Source of the DNA: Brachyspira murdochii
GTDB lineage: Bacteria > Spirochaetota > JAAYUW01
Reading direction: 5' to 3'
Assembly (NCBI GenBank): GCA_020722965.1
Contig: DYJT01000012.1
Location: forward strand, 21,439-55,204
Length of the DNA: 33,766 nt
Below, piece after piece: positions 14,803 through 23,699 of this stretch (position 1 is its first letter; each line of letters opens with the position of its first letter). The notes under the pieces are model-generated. The model worked only from the letters and a program-made list of their open reading frames with translations. It was not told the DNA's origin and made no database searches. A program made the position numbers and the translations under genes.

Positions 14803-15765
14803 TTATTGCTGTGTTTGTTGTTGCTGTTCTGAAGCAGATTCGGTAGCCATCTTCTGCTGTTCTTCCCATCTTAACAATTGAATAATACCTACTCTAGCGG
14901 CTTCAGCTCTTTTTTTAGCTTCTCTTCTATCTGAAAGAATATGCCATACTGCTTCATCATCAATTTCTTGTTCCATTTTAAGGATAGCAAGGTCATAAAT
15001 CATTTCAATAGATTTGATATAAACTACGAAATCTCCACCAATTTGATCACCATGCCTATAAATAATGAAGGAATCTAATTTTACATATGGTTCTTCAACA
15101 GGATATAGTGGATATTTTTTAAGCATTCTCTTTCTAACATCAGCTATGTAATTAGGATTATCTATGGTGATAGTAATAAAACCTGTAAAATCAAGATATC
15201 CAACGAAGAAATCTATTAATTCATCATTTTGGTTTTTTAATCTTATTGTGAGAGAATGAGGGAAATTTAATCCCCTAACGGTGATCATGATGTTTTTAAT
15301 TGCGCCAACATTTCTAAGAACACCTTTACCAATGTACTTATTACCTATTGAGTCATTAGCATCAGACTGTTCATATGAAGGAATTTCATAGGGAGGTATT
15401 ATCTTAGCCCAAGAATTATATTTTTCCGTTGGGAAATGAATTCTTGCACCTAAAACAGTTTGACCAGCATATTGACCTCTATCTACCTTCACGGTTTTAA
15501 CAAAAGATAGAGAGATGTTTTCAATAGTCCTAGAAGAAGGAGATAGTACTACTTCCCAGTTCTTTGGTTCTAGACTTATTAAAAGATTCTTTCTTTCTTC
15601 TTCTGTTTTTACAGATTGAAAAACATTTGGTCCAGCTATTTTAACGATATCTAATTCGGTGTTGTCTAGGCTGTTAAAATCGATTAGAATATTTCTTTCT
15701 GCAAGAACAGGAGTTGCAAAGATTAAAATCAGGAATATTGAAAAAATTAAATTCCATCGTTTCAT
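14803..15765 (-). CDS. flaA: Flagellar filament outer-sheath protein FlaA
   Basis: FlaA coats the FlaB core of spirochaete periplasmic flagella and affects filament stiffness and helical shape. The protein has 320 residues. It begins with a signal peptide of about 22 residues (hydrophobic core, ending PVLA), consistent with Sec export to the periplasm; FlaA, unlike FlaB, is exported this way. The body has family features such as GPNVFQS, NWEVVLSPSSRTIENI, GARIHFPTEKYNSWAKI, PPYEIP, VGAIKNIMITVRGLN and the late YDLAILKMEQE. The C-terminal 20 residues are Gln/Ser/Glu-rich. An AAAGGAG Shine-Dalgarno stands eight bases before the ATG. A FliA-type promoter and a strong terminator flank it, indicating a monocistronic, highly expressed gene. 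Confidence 0.95.
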   Translation of the reverse strand: MKRWNLIFSIFLILIFATPVLAERNILIDFNSLDNTELDIVKIAGPNVFQSVKTEEERKNLLISLEPKNWEVVLSPSSRTIENISLSFVKTVKVDRGQYAGQTVLGARIHFPTEKYNSWAKIIPPYEIPSYEQSDANDSIGNKYIGKGVLRNVGAIKNIMITVRGLNFPHSLTIRLKNQNDELIDFFVGYLDFTGFITITIDNPNYIADVRKRMLKKYPLYPVEEPYVKLDSFIIYRHGDQIGGDFVVYIKSIEMIYDLAILKMEQEIDDEAVWHILSDRREAKKRAEAARVGIIQLLRWEEQQKMATESASEQQQQTQQ

Positions 15766-15896: not shown

Positions 15897-16367
15897 TTAT
15901 TCAATAGGATAAGAATAAACTTTAATTCTTTGGTAAATGTAAAACTCAAGAGTTTTAATATCCTTAAATTGTCTTGTTTTTTTTAAGGATAAAAATGTCG
16001 CTTTTGAAAATTTATATTTGAGATTATCAGGGAATGCCATAAAAATCAAACTTGATTCCTCGGATAAAATTATCTTACAAATTCCACTTAAAAAATAAAC
16101 ATTATCTATTTCAATTCTATTATAGATATCTTTTTTAAATTTTTTTAAATTAATTGGTCCTGCAAAATAATGTCTTACCAACTGGATATCACTTATTTTT
16201 TCAGGTATTACCTGTTTTTCTGATTTTACATCATAATCTGAGGTAAGATAGTAAAAGGTTGTCGTATTTAATAAAAGAAATTTGAATAATAAAGATAATA
16301 GAAAAAGAGACAATACTATAAATATAATTGATAGAATTAACTTATTGTACCTTTTTAAATCCTTCAC
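15897..16367 (-). CDS. Small membrane-anchored protein of unknown function
   Basis: A 156-residue protein with a short basic N-terminus, one transmembrane helix (about 10-34) and a soluble, probably periplasmic domain of about 120 residues rich in Lys, Phe, Ile and Ser. I do not recognise a family. The start is GTG, decided by an AAGGAG Shine-Dalgarno (16378-16383) ten bases upstream. Its 5' end overlaps the amidase gene by 26 bases, so it is probably coupled to the amidase and may be a partner in the wall or the envelope. It is the last gene before the separate flaA unit. Confidence 0.7.
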   Translation of the reverse strand: MKDLKRYNKLILSIIFIVLSLFLLSLLFKFLLLNTTTFYYLTSDYDVKSEKQVIPEKISDIQLVRHYFAGPINLKKFKKDIYNRIEIDNVYFLSGICKIILSEESSLIFMAFPDNLKYKFSKATFLSLKKTRQFKDIKTLEFYIYQRIKVYSYPIE

Positions 16368-17643
16368 TAATTGTATACTCCTTTATAAATTTTTCTATCC
16401 CTTTACTCAAGGCTAAAGCAAGAGAATCAATAAATGAATCGGAATTCATGATTTTTACATCATTAGGATTTGTTATATATCCCATCTCTACTAAAATAGC
16501 CGGCATTTCTGAATAAGCAAGAACATAAAATGGCGCACCTTTGTAAAATATTGCAGGTATTTGCTTAATACCTTCTTTAATAGACTCAAAACAAAAATTG
16601 GCTAGTTTTGAAGATTCATAAATTAACTGCTCGTTTAATAATCTATTAATAATTATGCTTAATACTGACTCACCTACCTCCTTATTCTCATATTTTACAA
16701 GGTCTTTTATCTTCTCATCGATAACATCATAATCAAGATAATATACTTCAATACCACTTTTTTTACTAGAATATGGATTTGCATTCGCATGAATCGAAAT
16801 GAAAATACCTGTTTTAGTTTCTGTAAGATATTTATTAGCAAATTTTACTCTATTTTCCAATGTGACTTTCACATCTTTATCTCTCGTAAGATATATTTGT
16901 AGAAAAGGGAATTTTTTTTCGAGAACCTTTTTTATGCCTAAAACAGCTTTAAGTGTTAAATCTTTTTCATATAAATTCCCTTTAACTGCACCTGGATCAT
17001 CGCCCCCGTGACCTGCATCTAGAATAATAAATGAGATTACCTTGAAATCGACCATTTTAGCTTGAGCGTAAGAATAATATGCATTGATATCCTTTTGAAC
17101 CTGTGTAGAATCATCATCTTCTTCTTGATCTTCAATTTCTATCTCTTCTTTCTGATGAGTTTTATCCTCCTGCTTTGTTTCCTCTTCTTTTGTATCATTT
17201 TTTGTATCATTTTGTAAATCATTTTTATTATTTTTTTCCAGGTTATCCTTGTATTGATTGTACCAGAATTCATAAATAGATAGATTTTTTATAGGTATAA
17301 AAAAACTTTTATAAAAAGAAAAAACTAGCTGTTCAGGAACTATAAGTTTTTGATTTATTACCACAAGTTTTTTTGTCAAATTTACTATTGTATATTTATA
17401 TATACATAAACCAGAACTATCTACTAAAATTTGCTCATCATTATTGTTATTGGTAAAAATATAAAGATCCTGAATATGGTCATAATATATACTTACTCCG
17501 AAATCATTTAGTAAAGTTGTTTGATAAAAAGTTAATTCTGTTGATGCAATAAGCTTATTACCATTTGTAAAAATTAAAATTAGCACAATAAAGAACAAAA
17601 GGATTGAAAAAAATTTATCATATTTTAATCGCATAAATCTCAC
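16342..17643 (-). CDS. N-acetylmuramoyl-L-alanine amidase (Amidase_3)
   Basis: A zinc amidase that cleaves the MurNAc-L-Ala bond of peptidoglycan. All zinc/catalytic motifs are present: DAGHGGDDPGAVKG (His), YEKDLTL (Glu), SIHANAN (His) and LVEMGYITN (catalytic Glu). The N-terminus has a basic start and hydrophobic helix (signal peptide or anchor), then a domain of about 110 residues that I do not recognise. A very acidic low-complexity linker (about residues 140-190, NDTK repeats, EEDDD) joins it to the catalytic domain. I chose GTG at 17643 because GGAG lies six bases upstream. A TTG at 17655 or ATG at 17634 are alternatives. It overlaps the genes on both sides, suggesting coupling in the glycan-like block. 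Confidence 0.93.
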   Translation of the reverse strand: MRFMRLKYDKFFSILLFFIVLILIFTNGNKLIASTELTFYQTTLLNDFGVSIYYDHIQDLYIFTNNNNDEQILVDSSGLCIYKYTIVNLTKKLVVINQKLIVPEQLVFSFYKSFFIPIKNLSIYEFWYNQYKDNLEKNNKNDLQNDTKNDTKEEETKQEDKTHQKEEIEIEDQEEDDDSTQVQKDINAYYSYAQAKMVDFKVISFIILDAGHGGDDPGAVKGNLYEKDLTLKAVLGIKKVLEKKFPFLQIYLTRDKDVKVTLENRVKFANKYLTETKTGIFISIHANANPYSSKKSGIEVYYLDYDVIDEKIKDLVKYENKEVGESVLSIIINRLLNEQLIYESSKLANFCFESIKEGIKQIPAIFYKGAPFYVLAYSEMPAILVEMGYITNPNDVKIMNSDSFIDSLALALSKGIEKFIKEYTISEGFKKVQ

Positions 17644-19423
17644 AAATATCTCCAAATTTTATAATTTTACAAATTTTTAAATATAATTTTTTACCTATAA
17701 TTCTTGAAATTAAAGGATGAGCACTTGAAAATCTTTCAAAATATATATTTGGCACTACTATTTTATAGACTTTAAATCCATTTTTTTCAAGAAGCTTTTT
17801 TAATGAGTTAGGATTAAAATCATAGAAATGGTCTTTTGGCCTTGAATTAAAATACAGGTTTCTATTTTTCTTAAACTTAAACATAGGGCCAAAAGAAGAT
17901 GGAAAACTTAGACATAATAATCCATCTTTTCTTAATAAATTATAAGCATTTTTAATCTCGTTTTTTATATCATGAAGATGTTCAAAACAAAACCAATATG
18001 AAATAAGATCAAAAAGCTGGTAATTTTTGCTTTCTTTCAATTCCTCAAAATTTGAGTAAACCTGGTAATTTTTATTTTTACAAAATTCTTTTGCATAAGA
18101 ATTTGATTCTATAACATAACCTTCCATTTTTTTATTTAACTTTTCAAGTTCATCTTTTAAATCATCGAGAAAAAAGCCGAGGGCTCCTCCAAAATCTATT
18201 GCTCGAATTGTATTTTCATTTCTATTCATAATCATAATCTTTGGAATTATTTTTGACAATCTATTGAAATTTAGTTTTTTTATATTATCTCTATCTTCTA
18301 AATAAGTCTTCCCATATACTCTTTTATATTCTTCAAAATAATAACTTTTCCCTGAGTCCTCATTCATCTTTTCAAAATTTAAAATTTCTTTTACGATTGT
18401 ATGGCAGGATTTGCAATAAAAAAGATGGAAATTTTTTTCTGACCAAACTATTTTTAATTTTTCTTTATTACATATTGGGCAAATTGATTCAATTTCTCTT
18501 TTATCAATTGTTTCCGATAAAAATTTGATTAGATTTTCAACAAGATCATTAATTAATTCAGAATCCATAATTTTTAAGTCAAATTTATAGGTAAAATTAT
18601 TTTCAGATAATAGAGAATTTAATAAATCATCCTCTGCAATTTTACCATTTTTTGAAAAATGAATCTTGCCAAAATAATTATTTGAGAGTCTTTCATGGTA
18701 TTTAGTTGGAGAAACGATAAAAACTTGCTTTTTTAGTTTAATTGATTCAAAGAGAAAAAGACCAAAATGCGTAATTATATTTTTGGAATTAATAACTATA
18801 TTTTTAAAATCATTACTGCCCGATTTAATAATATCAAAATTCGCAAAAACAGTTTTTACCTTATTAGAATTTACCTTATCAAAAATATTAGAAGGCAACA
18901 CAAATAGTATTCGTTTATCATTTAACGATTTCACTTTATTTTCATTGATAACTCTGTTAAAAAATTTTGCTATTTTGCTACAATAATTGAATGGATCCAA
19001 CTGACCAAAATTTACCAAAATATCGTAAGTTACAGGATTTGATTTTCCCTTTAAATCATTTAAATAATCTTCAATTATTAAATAAGATAAAGATTTTATA
19101 TTCCCGAAATTTTCAAGTGATGGTAAAGAATTCCAGTAAAACCTGTAACCTTTATAAAAATTAGGTATATAATAATCATCAAAAGTTATTAAGGGTTTAT
19201 TACCAATAAATTTATCGATTTTATGATTTGAATCTCTAGAATCTTTAATTATAATGTCATATTGGTTTAAAGAAAGATTTAAGATATCTGATTTTCGCTC
19301 TATAGAAATTAAATCTGTTTTATATCCTAAACTATTTATAATTTTTTGCAATAATCGTTGTCTTACAAGATGACCCGATCCGAAATATTTTCCAAATCCT
19401 GCAATCTGAATTATTTTAATCAT
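17618..19423 (-). CDS. PseG-like / zinc-ribbon / methyltransferase fusion
   Basis: A 601-residue protein with three parts. Residues 1-300 resemble the GT-B-fold PseG (UDP-sugar hydrolase) group: GSGHLVRQRLL near the start, ITFDDYY, VNFGQLDPFNYC and HFGLFLFESIKL. Residues about 312-345 form a zinc ribbon (CPIC about 315-318, CKSC about 337-340). The rest is a class I SAM-dependent methyltransferase, with AIDFGGALGFFLDDL (glycine-rich SAM loop about 410) and FCFEHLHDI. Zinc ribbon plus methyltransferase is common in deoxysugar C-methyltransferases. PseG removes UDP during pseudaminic acid synthesis, so hydrolysis or glycosyl transfer on a nucleotide sugar is likely, followed by methylation. Neighbours: SpsF-like (24 bases upstream) and the amidase (overlap). 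Confidence 0.78.
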   Translation of the reverse strand: MIKIIQIAGFGKYFGSGHLVRQRLLQKIINSLGYKTDLISIERKSDILNLSLNQYDIIIKDSRDSNHKIDKFIGNKPLITFDDYYIPNFYKGYRFYWNSLPSLENFGNIKSLSYLIIEDYLNDLKGKSNPVTYDILVNFGQLDPFNYCSKIAKFFNRVINENKVKSLNDKRILFVLPSNIFDKVNSNKVKTVFANFDIIKSGSNDFKNIVINSKNIITHFGLFLFESIKLKKQVFIVSPTKYHERLSNNYFGKIHFSKNGKIAEDDLLNSLLSENNFTYKFDLKIMDSELINDLVENLIKFLSETIDKREIESICPICNKEKLKIVWSEKNFHLFYCKSCHTIVKEILNFEKMNEDSGKSYYFEEYKRVYGKTYLEDRDNIKKLNFNRLSKIIPKIMIMNRNENTIRAIDFGGALGFFLDDLKDELEKLNKKMEGYVIESNSYAKEFCKNKNYQVYSNFEELKESKNYQLFDLISYWFCFEHLHDIKNEIKNAYNLLRKDGLLCLSFPSSFGPMFKFKKNRNLYFNSRPKDHFYDFNPNSLKKLLEKNGFKVYKIVVPNIYFERFSSAHPLISRIIGKKLYLKICKIIKFGDICEIYAIKI

Positions 19424-19447
19424 TTTAAATTCAAATTTTAATTTTAA

Positions 19448-20209
19448 TTATTCTTTATAGTTTTTCTGAATAATATCTTTATTAAATTCGAGTAAAGTTT
19501 TGTTTTTTAAATAAATTTTTTCTATTTCTGGTAAATCGATCAAATAAGCAGGCTTATGTTTATTTATATAACTATTAACTATGTTTTGAGCGACAATATA
19601 ATCTTTTTCAGTATCAATAGTCAATCTTAAATTTAATATACTTGAATATCTATTAAAAGGTTTTCTTAATATATTAAATTTATTCTCATTTTCATATATG
19701 TAAGGTGTTACATGCTCAAAATGATATTTTTTATTTGCATTTTTATAATCATCCCAAAAAGCTTCATTTTTAATAATTTCAGTTTGAACCCCTAATGGTA
19801 GATTTGTTCTTACAAAATAATCTGGAAGTCTTTGATTCAAAAAAGAAAGTCTATTTAATATTTTAATATTATTTTTTAATACCGATAAAGATGTAAAAGG
19901 ATTGTCTGAAGTCACTCTTATTAAATAATCTGATTGATAATCTGTAAAAATCTTTGCAAACCTTGCAAGCACATTTTCTTCTTCACCACTTTCCAGAATA
20001 AATCCATTTTCTAAATAATTTATAAAAATTTGTTCTTCCGAATATGGAACTGCTACAATAAAATAATCTATAAAATCTTTAAGTGTTAGAAGTCTTTTTT
20101 GTAAAAAAAGTACAATTTCATATTTATCTAATTTTTTTATTACTTTTTGAAAAAGTCGTGTGGATTTTAATCTTGCCTGTAAAATTAGGGTGAATTTCAA
20201 TTTTTTCAT
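19448..20209 (-). CDS. SpsF/NeuA-type cytidylyltransferase
   Basis: A 253-residue nucleotidyltransferase of the acylneuraminate cytidylyltransferase-like/SpsF group (named for Bacillus spore coat polysaccharide). The N-terminal nucleotide-binding loop is LILQARLKSTRLFQKVIKKL. It is followed by VAVPYS and by RVTSDNPFTS, the metal-binding motif equivalent to the usual D-x-P. Members activate sugars, mostly as CMP derivatives; the sugar is not determinable. GEEENVLARF is another family motif. It lies 9 bases after the radical SAM gene and 24 bases before the PseG fusion. No strong Shine-Dalgarno precedes the ATG. Pairing with PseG-like and radical SAM genes argues for a modified nonulosonate-like sugar. 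Confidence 0.85.
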   Translation of the reverse strand: MKKLKFTLILQARLKSTRLFQKVIKKLDKYEIVLFLQKRLLTLKDFIDYFIVAVPYSEEQIFINYLENGFILESGEEENVLARFAKIFTDYQSDYLIRVTSDNPFTSLSVLKNNIKILNRLSFLNQRLPDYFVRTNLPLGVQTEIIKNEAFWDDYKNANKKYHFEHVTPYIYENENKFNILRKPFNRYSSILNLRLTIDTEKDYIVAQNIVNSYINKHKPAYLIDLPEIEKIYLKNKTLLEFNKDIIQKNYKE

Positions 20210-20218
20210 TTATTTTAA

Positions 20219-21766
20219 TTAAAAGAAATAGGTGTAAAATTCATTACAATTTTTACACAATTCAGGATAATTGTTAATACAATGATCAAAATAATATTTT
20301 TTCATTTTATCTATGATTTGATTAAGTGGACTTTCCAAATTAATATTTAATATCTCTCCATTATAATCAGAATAGCATAAGGAAATTTTCCCATCCGAGA
20401 GAATAAATAAATCTCTTCTTAAATGATAACATGGGAATCTTTCAACTGGAGTCAAATCAGCAACCTCTAAATTTGGTAAATTTTTTGAGTATGAATTAAA
20501 TTTTCTGAAGATAATATTTTTCTCAAAATTTTTGAAATAATTATAAAATTCTTCTAATTCCTCATCATTTTGAGGGATTCGTAAATATGAAATAAACATG
20601 TTTTCAGGATATTTCTCTAATAAGTTAAATAAGATTTTCAATAAAAGAGATAATATCATTTTTTTACCAAGTTTTTTATATGTCTCTTCTTTTATAGCAT
20701 CTAAACTGACAACAATATTGATATTTTTTGGATATATAAATTTATCAAAAATATCTTCTGTTAAAAATGAACCATTTGTTTCGATATAAACCTTATTGTT
20801 TTTAGAAAGAAAGTTAATTATTTCAAAAAACTCGGGGTGCATAAAAGGCTCGCCAAAACCACCTATTATGAAAATGGCATCTATAAAATACAATTTGTTG
20901 CTACTAATGAAATTAAAAAGCAATTCTTTATTGATAAATCTCGTTTCTCGTTTCAATCCTCTTGGGTAAAGGCAATGAATGCATGAAAAGTTACAACTGC
21001 TGGATATTTCAATTATATATGTTTTTGGTATAGTATATAAATTTTTTTTATCTTGGAGTAACTTTTGTATATCTTCCCATTTGATATCTACTTTCGCCTC
21101 TTTAATAAAAGAAAAATCTATAAGGTTTTCAATATTTAACTCAGTATTATTTATTATCTTATTGATAATCGGTAATGAAGAATAATTTGAAATAGATAAA
21201 GAGATTCTATATGGAAGGTAATAATCAAATCCTTCGATTAAATCAATATCAAAAACGCTGACATTTCTTAAAAGTATATCGAACAACACATTTTGGTGAT
21301 AAAAATCATTTTCGGTAGACAGCTTAATCAATTCATTAATTATAGAATTTTTAAAAACCTCGGCAACGATCCCTTCTGGAAAATTTTCGCCATAATAGTA
21401 ATCTACTAAATATTTTTCAGCATCATTTAAAACAAATTCATTTTTATCTATTGAAAAAAAAGGATAGGAACTCGATAGCAAAATTGTGTAATTTCTTAAA
21501 TTAAATCCTTTTTTATCTATCAGTTTTAAATATTCTTCTAATAAAGATTTTATATTTTTATCATAAAAAATAATATCAGAATTTTGAAAAAATGATAAAG
21601 CATATTCTTTATATTTATCATTTAGTGCACAGACCAAATTTAAGTTTAATTTATGAATAAAATAATCTACCTTCCTTTGAAAAAATGAAAAATATTCTTT
21701 AAGTACATCTTCATTATAAATTTCAAATATTGAATCCTCAAAAATCAAAAGTAAATTATTATTCAT
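20219..21766 (-). CDS. Spiro-SPASM-like radical SAM protein
   Basis: A 515-residue radical SAM protein. The 4Fe-4S motif is Cys258-x3-Cys262-x2-Cys265 (SSCNFSCIHC), followed by GGFGEPFMHP (about 302-311), the equivalent of the GGEP motif. The C-terminus has SPASM-like cysteines (FPCYHL, ISLCYSD, Cys496, Cys504, Cys507), expected to bind an auxiliary cluster. Residues 1-230 form a separate domain with weak resemblance to sugar nucleotidyltransferases and match my memory of the spirochaete-specific 'spiro-SPASM' family. SPASM enzymes mostly modify peptides or proteins, some act on sugars. It heads a tight run with the SpsF-like and PseG-like genes. AAGG lies eight bases before the ATG, within a small hairpin. 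Confidence 0.86.
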   Translation of the reverse strand: MNNNLLLIFEDSIFEIYNEDVLKEYFSFFQRKVDYFIHKLNLNLVCALNDKYKEYALSFFQNSDIIFYDKNIKSLLEEYLKLIDKKGFNLRNYTILLSSSYPFFSIDKNEFVLNDAEKYLVDYYYGENFPEGIVAEVFKNSIINELIKLSTENDFYHQNVLFDILLRNVSVFDIDLIEGFDYYLPYRISLSISNYSSLPIINKIINNTELNIENLIDFSFIKEAKVDIKWEDIQKLLQDKKNLYTIPKTYIIEISSSCNFSCIHCLYPRGLKRETRFINKELLFNFISSNKLYFIDAIFIIGGFGEPFMHPEFFEIINFLSKNNKVYIETNGSFLTEDIFDKFIYPKNINIVVSLDAIKEETYKKLGKKMILSLLLKILFNLLEKYPENMFISYLRIPQNDEELEEFYNYFKNFEKNIIFRKFNSYSKNLPNLEVADLTPVERFPCYHLRRDLFILSDGKISLCYSDYNGEILNINLESPLNQIIDKMKKYYFDHCINNYPELCKNCNEFYTYFF

Positions 21767-21807: not shown

Positions 21808-22497
21808 TTATCTTACCCTGAAAGTTACTTCTTTTATATCATCACTTCCAAAAGATAAGATATCTTCTTTATTTATCGGCGCAACGCCTTCACATGTACC
21901 GGTAAGTATGATATCACCTGTAACCAAGGTGAAGTGCCTGGATATGTACGATAATAATTTTGGAATCGAAAAAATCATCAAGGAGGAATCTGATTGTTGA
22001 ACAATTGAAGAGTTTTTCTTAAGGTAAAATGTTTTTTTAAGAAGTTCTTCCATATTTTTGAATGGATAAATTGGGGAAATAGGGCAACTAGTATCAAAAC
22101 CCTTTGAAATAAGCCAAGGGGCTCCATTTTTTTTAGCCTCTGATTGTAAATCTCTGCATGTTAAATCAAGAGCAATGGCATATCCACCTATTATATCTTT
22201 CACCCTGTCTTCAGCAACATTTTTACAAACAGATGAAATATATATTGCTATTTCAACTTCGTGATGAACAAGATTTGAAAAATCCGGGAAAATGATATCT
22301 TCCCCTTCTTCGATTATAGATGTTGGAGGTTTTGAAAATATCAATGGTTTACCTATATTAATCGAATTCAACTCTTCAATATGTTTTACATAGTTTTGAC
22401 CAACGCAATATATTGTTGAAACTGGTAATAACCTGCCATCTATGGCATGGATAGTTTTCTTTAAAAATGCTTTTGGATCAATATCAAAAAATTTCAT
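21808..22497 (-). CDS. Fumarylacetoacetate-hydrolase-family enzyme
   Basis: A 229-residue single-domain FAH-family protein. It shows CVGQNYVKHIEEL near the N-terminus, PLIFSKPPTSI, the metal-binding LVHHEVEIAIYI (two Glu) and ALDLTCRDLQ (Asp), then WLISKGFDTSCPISP and VTGDIILTGTCEGVAPI. Family members are metal-dependent hydrolases or decarboxylases of beta-diketo acids, including acylpyruvases (YcgM/FAHD1-like, close in length) and isomerases/decarboxylases of catechol pathways. The substrate is undetermined; acylpyruvase or oxaloacetate decarboxylase is reasonable from size alone. AGGAT precedes the ATG. The gap to the radical SAM gene is 41 bases, so it may share a transcript without sharing a pathway. 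Confidence 0.9.
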   Translation of the reverse strand: MKFFDIDPKAFLKKTIHAIDGRLLPVSTIYCVGQNYVKHIEELNSINIGKPLIFSKPPTSIIEEGEDIIFPDFSNLVHHEVEIAIYISSVCKNVAEDRVKDIIGGYAIALDLTCRDLQSEAKKNGAPWLISKGFDTSCPISPIYPFKNMEELLKKTFYLKKNSSIVQQSDSSLMIFSIPKLLSYISRHFTLVTGDIILTGTCEGVAPINKEDILSFGSDDIKEVTFRVR

Positions 22498-22568
22498 TTT
22501 AATTTATCCTATAATTTTAATATCATTTTAATAATTTTTTGATTTAATTCTTTACATAAATTTTATAT

Positions 22569-23699
22569 TTATATCATTTTTAAAAATGCTCTTCTTCTTT
22601 TATGCTGTCTTGCTTCAAAGTATTTCCAGTGCCCCTGTACTTTTTCATTTACCTCAAGTTCAGGATTTGATTCTGCTGAGATTATACCTGCTTTTATAGC
22701 AGATTTTGTGAGCTCAGTCATCATCAATGCATCTACACCTTTTGCCTGATATTCAGGAAGAACGGCTCCCAAAAGCAAATCTAGATATATTGGTTTTAGT
22801 AAGGCTTTTAATAGATGAACAAATCCGAAGGGAAGCAATCTCCCTTTAGCCTTTTGAAGAGCTCTATTTAATGATGGTATTGCTATGACCATTCCTACAA
22901 TTCTATCCTGTTGATTAAATATTAGTTTTATAAATTTAGGTGATAGAAAAGAAAAGTATGATTTTATATAATACTGTATCTGATTTTCGGTTAATTCTGT
23001 AACTCCATATAGATCTTTGTAGGTTTTTTCAATAACTTCAAATACTTCTCTTCCATATTCTTTGACTAATTTATTTACATTCTTTATTTCTTTTACATGA
23101 AGTTTGAATCTTTCCATAACAATTCTGGATAGTTTGTCTGCTTTTTCAGGGATTTGTTTTGGTACTTTTATTTCGAATTCGACCCAATCTGCATCCTTTT
23201 TTAAACCAAGTTTTTCATAGTGATCAATATAATAAGGATAATTATACAAAGTTGCCATAGTATTAAGTTCTTCAAATCCTTCAATCAATAAACCTTCATA
23301 ATCAAGATCTGAGAAACCCAAAGGTCCATTTAATCCAACCATTCCTTTTTCTTTCGCCCAATAGGTAACCTTTTCAAATAGACTATGCGAAACATCAAAA
23401 TCATCTATAAAGTCAAACCAACCGAATCTAGCAAATTTATTACCCCATTTTTCAATATATTTTTTTTGAATTATTCCAGCAATTCTTCCTACCATTTTAT
23501 TTTCAATCCATGCAGTATAATAAACTGCTTCGCATACTTCAAAAGCTGGATTTTTATCTTTTCTAAGGGTATTCATTTCATCAAAAAATAATGGAGGAAC
23601 CCAATATTTATTGTCTTTATAAAGATCAAATTCAAATTGAACAAATTGTTTTAATTCTTTTAAATTAGTAACTTCTCTAATTTCAATGTTTTTTGTCAT
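22569..23699 (-). CDS. GNAT-fold acetyltransferase-like protein
   Basis: A 376-residue protein of a conserved GNAT-like family also found in Bacteroidetes and other anaerobes. Recognisable conserved parts are WVPPLFFDE with NPAFE (residues about 33-55), GRIAGIIQ (beta strands of the first GNAT-like half), FGWFDFIDD, GLNGPLGFSDLDYEG, and YNYPYYIDHYEKLG. The second half ends with GAVLPEYQAKGVDALM, which resembles the acyl-CoA pyrophosphate-binding loop of GNAT enzymes. The acceptor substrate is unknown. An AGGAGC Shine-Dalgarno supports the ATG start. It follows pheT after 40 bases and precedes the FAH-family gene after 71 bases, all on the minus strand. Confidence 0.8.
   Translation of the reverse strand: MTKNIEIREVTNLKELKQFVQFEFDLYKDNKYWVPPLFFDEMNTLRKDKNPAFEVCEAVYYTAWIENKMVGRIAGIIQKKYIEKWGNKFARFGWFDFIDDFDVSHSLFEKVTYWAKEKGMVGLNGPLGFSDLDYEGLLIEGFEELNTMATLYNYPYYIDHYEKLGLKKDADWVEFEIKVPKQIPEKADKLSRIVMERFKLHVKEIKNVNKLVKEYGREVFEVIEKTYKDLYGVTELTENQIQYYIKSYFSFLSPKFIKLIFNQQDRIVGMVIAIPSLNRALQKAKGRLLPFGFVHLLKALLKPIYLDLLLGAVLPEYQAKGVDALMMTELTKSAIKAGIISAESNPELEVNEKVQGHWKYFEARQHKRRRAFLKMI

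Follow-up and report, generated by a model that had tools for sequence, protein, structure and literature searches.

A block of five minus-strand genes lies directly upstream of flaA in a 33,766-nucleotide stretch of Brachyspira murdochii DNA (GenBank assembly GCA_020722965.1, contig DYJT01000012.1, positions 21,439 to 55,204; the whole stretch is hereafter referred to as the window). Consecutive genes are separated by gaps of 9 and 24 bases or overlap by 38 and 26, and a 131-base gap separates the gene of a small membrane protein from flaA, next downstream (Table 1); the order, strand, gaps and overlaps described in an initial sequence-only reading of this DNA were all confirmed from the gene coordinates. 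That reading took the block to make or attach a methylated nonulosonate-type sugar on the flagella, which in spirochaetes rotate within the periplasm. We retain this part of it, given the conserved gene order and the absence of the genes where flagellin is missing, but not the necessary radical step, the involvement of the amidase and the small protein, or FlaA as target. We best explain the window as two modules side by side, one for a nonulosonate on spirochaete flagellins and one made up of the amidase, Germane and flaA genes; the block is conserved over most of the spirochaete phylum and very probably helps to make the unusual sugar of the internal flagella.

Table 1. Genes of the block, flaA, and nonulosonate genes located elsewhere in the same genome (SAM, S-adenosylmethionine; UDP, uridine diphosphate)
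Feature	Position	Strand	Evidence and remarks
spiroSPASM protein	20219..21766	-	TIGR04321, 281.9 bits; first in transcription order
SpsF-type cytidylyltransferase	19448..20209	-	PF02348 (CTP_transf_3), E 6e-20; second
Fusion of PseG-like UDP-sugar hydrolase domain and zinc-ribbon SAM methyltransferase (PseG:MT)	17618..19423	-	PF13489 (Methyltransf_23), E 7e-16; third
N-acetylmuramoyl-L-alanine amidase (amidase_3)	16342..17655	-	PF01520, E 1e-41; fourth
Small membrane protein, divergent Germane (GerMN) domain	15897..16367	-	hhalign and block position; fifth
FlaA, flagellar filament outer-layer (sheath) protein	14803..15765	-	PF04620, E 8e-57; after the five-gene block
PseC-like	C18:14748		outside the block
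PseB/WbpM-like	C23:159357		outside the block
Lone NeuB	C38:34562		outside the block

The first gene product matches TIGR04321 over residues 9-515, above the curated cut-off of 250 bits. It combines an N-terminal SpsF/KdsB-like nucleotidyltransferase-fold domain (about residues 1-210; hhalign probability 97.6, E 4.5e-12, against the SpsF profile) with a radical-SAM (rSAM)/SPASM domain, in which the radical motif CX3CX2C is intact as CNFSCIHC and the SPASM domain PF13186 is matched. When an AlphaFold2 model of the protein (predicted local distance difference test score, pLDDT, 84.7) was searched with Foldseek, the N-terminal part resembled CMP-KDO synthetase and the C-terminal half BtrN, a radical SAM alcohol dehydrogenase. 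The SpsF-type protein (72.4 bits against a PF02348 cut-off of 22.6) carries the QARLxSTR and DNP motifs, its family profile matches the cytidylyltransferase 6oew (E 5e-42) as well as many KdsB, and it is predicted to activate a nonulosonate with cytidine monophosphate (CMP). The PseG domain of the window fusion, taken alone, gives a weak match to TIGR03590 (E 0.011; 15.4 bits against an equivalog cut-off of 153.55) and is classed here as a homologue of PseG and not as a PseG equivalog. At the family level the PseG-like assignment is solid: TIGR03590 matches 17 of 20 PseG:MT relatives (best E 9.7e-18), the family profile matches the PseG structure 3hbm (E 1.3e-8), and the catalytic GxGHxxR motif is invariant in 20/20 members. 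The same family also matches the TcaB9 sugar methyltransferase. The small membrane protein aligns with Germane relatives (hhalign E 7.2e-5, probability 63), and its own relatives match PF10646 (Germane; E 2e-7).

Neighbourhoods of the spiroSPASM gene (rSAM in the gene orders below) were taken from 60 spirochaete loci. More than half of these, from many spirochaete families, have the order rSAM-X-SpsF-PseG:MT-Y-amidase-Germane-flaA, where X and Y are two further genes; the remaining loci run off their contig, are broken up or miss neighbours. The block order was seen again in a second collection of 80 named loci, retrieved with an alignment of central spiroSPASM members (the window protein alone as query gave no matches), with the full order present exactly in 41/80. 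With the same order found in tens of genomes and in many families, the arrangement is not due to chance, and the scattering in related genomes that the sequence-only reading had allowed for was not found. The window, two genomes of the same genus and loci L073 and L075 share this order minus X and Y. As a local feature, a fumarylacetoacetate-hydrolase-family gene and a gene for a 376-residue acetyltransferase-like protein (21808-23699) lie directly upstream of spiroSPASM in the window; they flank it only in the window's genus, the acetyltransferase-like one also being near spiroSPASM in L071.

The product of Y is an ATP-grasp ligase that carries an L-amino-acid-ligase domain at its C-terminus; in many deep lineages (e.g. 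L116, L117, L119) it is fused to a flavin mononucleotide (FMN)-dependent alpha-hydroxy-acid dehydrogenase (Y:FMN_dh). Family f18 has SpsF fused to PseG:MT (SpsF:PseG:MT). These fusions join parts of the proposed pathway and count in its favour. Names given here to families f34, f47 and f10, and to Treponema pallidum and T. denticola, are presumed from genome size and gene content; genomes with 1,139,633-bp and 2,843,201-bp replicons, respectively, are those we take, by replicon length only, to be the two Treponema species. At the locus of the presumed T. pallidum genome (L052), a short FMN_dh-like protein is encoded two genes past SpsF:PseG:MT, about 6.1 kb beyond the point where rSAM starts.

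A link to flagella comes from co-occurrence. Among 392 spirochaete genomes searched for both proteins (matches counted at E < 1e-20), spiroSPASM was present in 298/342 flagellin-bearing genomes vs 0/50 flagellin-less ones (Fisher's test, p about 2e-37, with related genomes not being independent), and the module was absent from every flagellin-less genome examined, contrary to one outcome considered in the sequence-only reading. The 44 flagellin-bearing exceptions comprise all 36 genomes of f34 (Borrelia-like, about 1-2 Mb) and eight others, several of low completeness. By family and genus codes, spiroSPASM and flagellin were jointly lost at least three separate times (f47; genus g78 of f42; G339 of f48), while sister genomes keep both (G274 for g78; G221 and G285 for G339). 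Y and PseG:MT show the same presence/absence pattern as spiroSPASM in 79 representative genomes, partly broken by G391 and G155, two genomes whose assemblies are incomplete (89 and 80 in completeness, respectively).

Unlinked genes of the pathway follow suit. NeuB matches are strong in nearly all block-bearing genomes, the presumed T. pallidum genome included. G140 and G214 give weak matches only; NeuB is absent from the three f34 genomes searched and from G339. Maf-type transferases were found in 31/31 block-bearing genomes and, among the genomes searched, are absent from f34, g78 of f42 and G339. PseB- and PseC-like genes are adjacent in many genomes, again including the presumed T. pallidum one, and none of the sampled f34 genomes has Y, PseG:MT, NeuB, Maf or genes like PseB and PseC. 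The window, as initially described, holds no PseB, PseC, PseI or dedicated glycosyltransferase; relatives of PseB, PseC, PseI and Maf are encoded elsewhere in its genome (Table 1), with two NeuB/PseI copies (PF03102) and three good Maf matches (PF01973) at three loci, a fourth listed match falling below the cut-off. In a NeuB tree, the core-group copies form one clade, apart from the copies of legionaminic-type clusters, and the lone copy of the window genome is too divergent to place. This genome also carries a second nonulosonate cluster of the legionaminic type (L137; G000:C23:145000-164500) in an apparent surface polysaccharide region, with genes named by eye from sequence as epimerase/dehydratase, aminotransferase, acyltransferase, NeuB, NeuC-like hydrolase, CBS-nucleotidyltransferase and CMP transferase.

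The block can be taken apart. Three Borrelia-like genomes (L264, L265, L266) have X-amidase-Germane-flaA at the flaA locus, with rSAM, SpsF, PseG:MT and Y missing there, and in the presumed T. pallidum and T. denticola genomes amidase-Germane-flaA lies apart from rSAM-X-SpsF:PseG:MT. Because the Borrelia-like genomes keep X and amidase-Germane-flaA without the sugar genes, we treat these as separate from the sugar module, and the block falls into three parts. One is the sugar module, consisting of rSAM, SpsF, PseG:MT and Y; X is the second, and amidase-Germane-flaA the third. The amidase and the small protein, earlier placed in the sugar pathway, thus belong with flaA, where they stay in genomes that lost the pathway. 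X matched no Pfam family; its predicted structure (L160:11463-12416 and relatives, pLDDT 85) matches polypeptide N-acetylgalactosamine-transferases of the GT-A fold, making it a possible protein or lipid O-glycosyltransferase. We discarded X as a dedicated flagellin transferase, as it was not found in the window's genome and is retained in Borrelia-like and flagellin-less ones. Such conserved order with separable modules is also what one would expect of an old operon whose genes are co-inherited without any shared function. NeuB, Maf and, in many genomes, Y are unlinked to the block, yet they follow the same pattern of gain and loss, which operon inertia cannot explain, and we consider this account very improbable.

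Flagellin sequences point in the same direction. The glycosylation motifs of T. denticola flagellin are VEVSQL and DRIAS. Leptospira FlaB has retained them, and in Borrelia FlaB their serines are replaced (PMC7431986). A flagellin of the window genome (L241) reads VEVSQLVAEIDRIAS, with both motif serines present; its two other flagellins keep DRIAS or DRVAS and lack the serine of the first motif. All five Borrelia-like flagellins (5/5) have IEIEQL together with NRIAD, NRISD or NRVAD, i.e. both serines are replaced, and these genomes have lost the pathway together with the FlaB site serines. In T. denticola, FlaB carries a glycan of 450.2 Da, which filament assembly requires (PMC9481697). To judge by the title of Wyss 1998 (cited in PMC13144727) and by PMC9481697, the modified proteins reported are flagellins and not the sheath protein. 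FlaA, a target considered at first, was dropped as glycan acceptor on the strength of that title and of the site motif being in FlaB.

Could the block instead make an envelope glycan, either an outer-membrane glycolipid or a wall-linked polymer, with the proximity of flaA being incidental? Such a role would fit the presence of the amidase and X in the block, the retention of X by Borrelia-like genomes and by those without flagellin, and the separate legionaminic-type cluster of the window genome. Against this, rSAM, PseG:MT and Y vanish with flagellin and X does not, and the site serines disappear together with the pathway in Borrelia-like flagellins. Further to that, the presumed T. pallidum genome retains the whole set, and T. 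pallidum is not known to have lipopolysaccharide. An envelope glycan is therefore unlikely.

The spiroSPASM family has lost its radical motif repeatedly. CX3CX2C is kept in 37/66 family members and lost in 29/66, with many different replacements, while all four SPASM cysteines are kept in 65/66. Parsimony places at least nine state changes on the tree, five of them forced by starred branches. The motif is missing in the presumed T. denticola and T. pallidum genomes and in all Brachyspira-like ones; its presence in 76/80 named loci reflects a set biased toward an intact query, which was excluded from loss rates. In a public metagenome-assembled genome labelled T. denticola (L229), spiroSPASM shares only 36% identity with its counterpart in the presumed T. 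denticola genome; the label is doubtful, and for this reason L229 was not used as a representative. Since the motif is lost in 29/66 members, a radical step cannot be required for the role that they share, the core role of the family, against the step first proposed. A radical enzyme needed by the pathway throughout the spirochaetes, which would hold its cluster at another site in members without CX3CX2C, would agree with the motif in 37 members, the window protein included, and with a C-terminal half predicted to fold like BtrN; the varied replacements and the repeated state changes, five of them forced, make this quite improbable.

Taken together, we think it highly likely that the rSAM, SpsF and PseG:MT genes of the block act in flagellin nonulosonate glycosylation. 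On the best reading, their products act together with Y, NeuB and Maf, whose genes lie elsewhere; between them, these proteins would build an O-methylated, N-acylated nonulosonate and transfer it to FlaB. The homologies, gene order, co-occurrence, joint losses and loss of sites with the pathway are observed, the target is supported by correlation, and we infer each enzymatic step and the identity of the sugar. PseB/SpsM-like and PseC/SpsC-like enzymes would produce a UDP-linked amino sugar, to whose free amine Y may attach a polyhydroxy acyl group, replacing the usual PseH/SpsD acetylation. The PseG-like domain would then strip UDP, NeuB extend the sugar by three carbons, SpsF add CMP, and Maf-type transferases transfer the sugar to serine or threonine of FlaB, with the fused methyltransferase of PseG:MT presumably O-methylating the acyl part. 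SpiroSPASM would be a partner present throughout, with its SpsF-like fold and its SPASM cysteines important in all lineages. Only where the radical motif survives, as in the window protein, would a radical reaction be added, perhaps the oxidation of an alcohol as by BtrN.

The glycan of T. denticola is reportedly a mono-acetylated Pse-type sugar with a 2-methoxy-4,5,6-trihydroxyhexanoyl group at N7, for which we compute a mass of 450.185 Da. Such an acyl group would call for a methyltransferase, for a ligase that forms amides and for an alpha-hydroxy-acid dehydrogenase. We rate this specific acyl-ligase and methylation chemistry at about even chances. Bolder, and tentative, is the idea of a pseudaminic-type pathway of the spirochaetes' own, in which Y (often FMN_dh-fused) replaces the acetyltransferase and loads an O-methylated C6 sugar-acid (e.g. 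from reduced and methylated 2-keto-3-deoxygluconate), and spiroSPASM is a former radical alcohol dehydrogenase repeatedly turned into a non-radical, SPASM-cluster, SpsF-like partner.

Several points weigh against glycosylation of FlaB by these enzymes. In none of the 42 genomes searched do PseB and PseC relatives reach the equivalog cut-offs; neither Y nor PseG:MT was found in G391, although it has both spiroSPASM and flagellin; Y of the window genome lies outside the block (C3:23404). The legionaminic-type cluster means that nonulosonate enzymes could serve a surface polysaccharide, and the two Treponema genomes were named only by replicon length.

In the literature searched we found no paper setting out the genes that build the spirochaete flagellin glycan, for which a role in keeping the sheath attached to the core has been proposed in Leptospira (PMC13144727). 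The present analysis provides a short list of candidates: spiroSPASM, SpsF, PseG:MT, Y, FMN dehydrogenase, NeuB, the PseB/PseC-like pair and Maf. It also offers a possible explanation for the missing sites in Borrelia-like flagellins, and a natural series of radical-SAM proteins in which the radical cluster motif is lost and the auxiliary cysteines are kept. TIGR04321, of which the window gene is a member above the cut-off, has so far been a name without a stated role, given only after where the family occurs; new here are its proposed link to flagellin nonulosonate synthesis and the repeated loss of its radical motif.

Parts of the scheme are familiar from other bacteria. The legionaminic acid pathway of Bacillus subtilis (SpsM, C, D, G, E, F; PMC7439481) has a UDP-linked route, a PseG-like SpsG, a NeuB-like SpsE and activation by SpsF. 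It differs in serving the spore crust, in relying on the acetyltransferase SpsD for the step that we propose an ATP-grasp ligase to carry out in spirochaetes, and in having no spiroSPASM; the reported pathway describes no methyltransferase step. The sfmABCDE genes of Shewanella oneidensis likewise combine a PseI-like gene with SAM methyltransferase and ATP-grasp_4 genes and target flagellin, whose modification is needed for motility and whose glycan is a 274 Da nonulosonate plus a nitrogen-free O-methylated moiety (PMC3765264). Unlike the spirochaete module, that system has thiamine pyrophosphate enzyme and reductase genes and serves external flagella, spiroSPASM is not among the five genes, and clear PseG, PseF and PseH orthologues were not reported (PMC3765264). 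The Campylobacter Pse pathway (PseB, C, H, G, I, F and Maf) shares the order of steps, the flagellin target and Maf-type transferases, whereas in spirochaetes the PseB, PseC and PseG relatives are below equivalog cut-offs, SpsF stands in for PseF, and the ligase Y would take the place of PseH.

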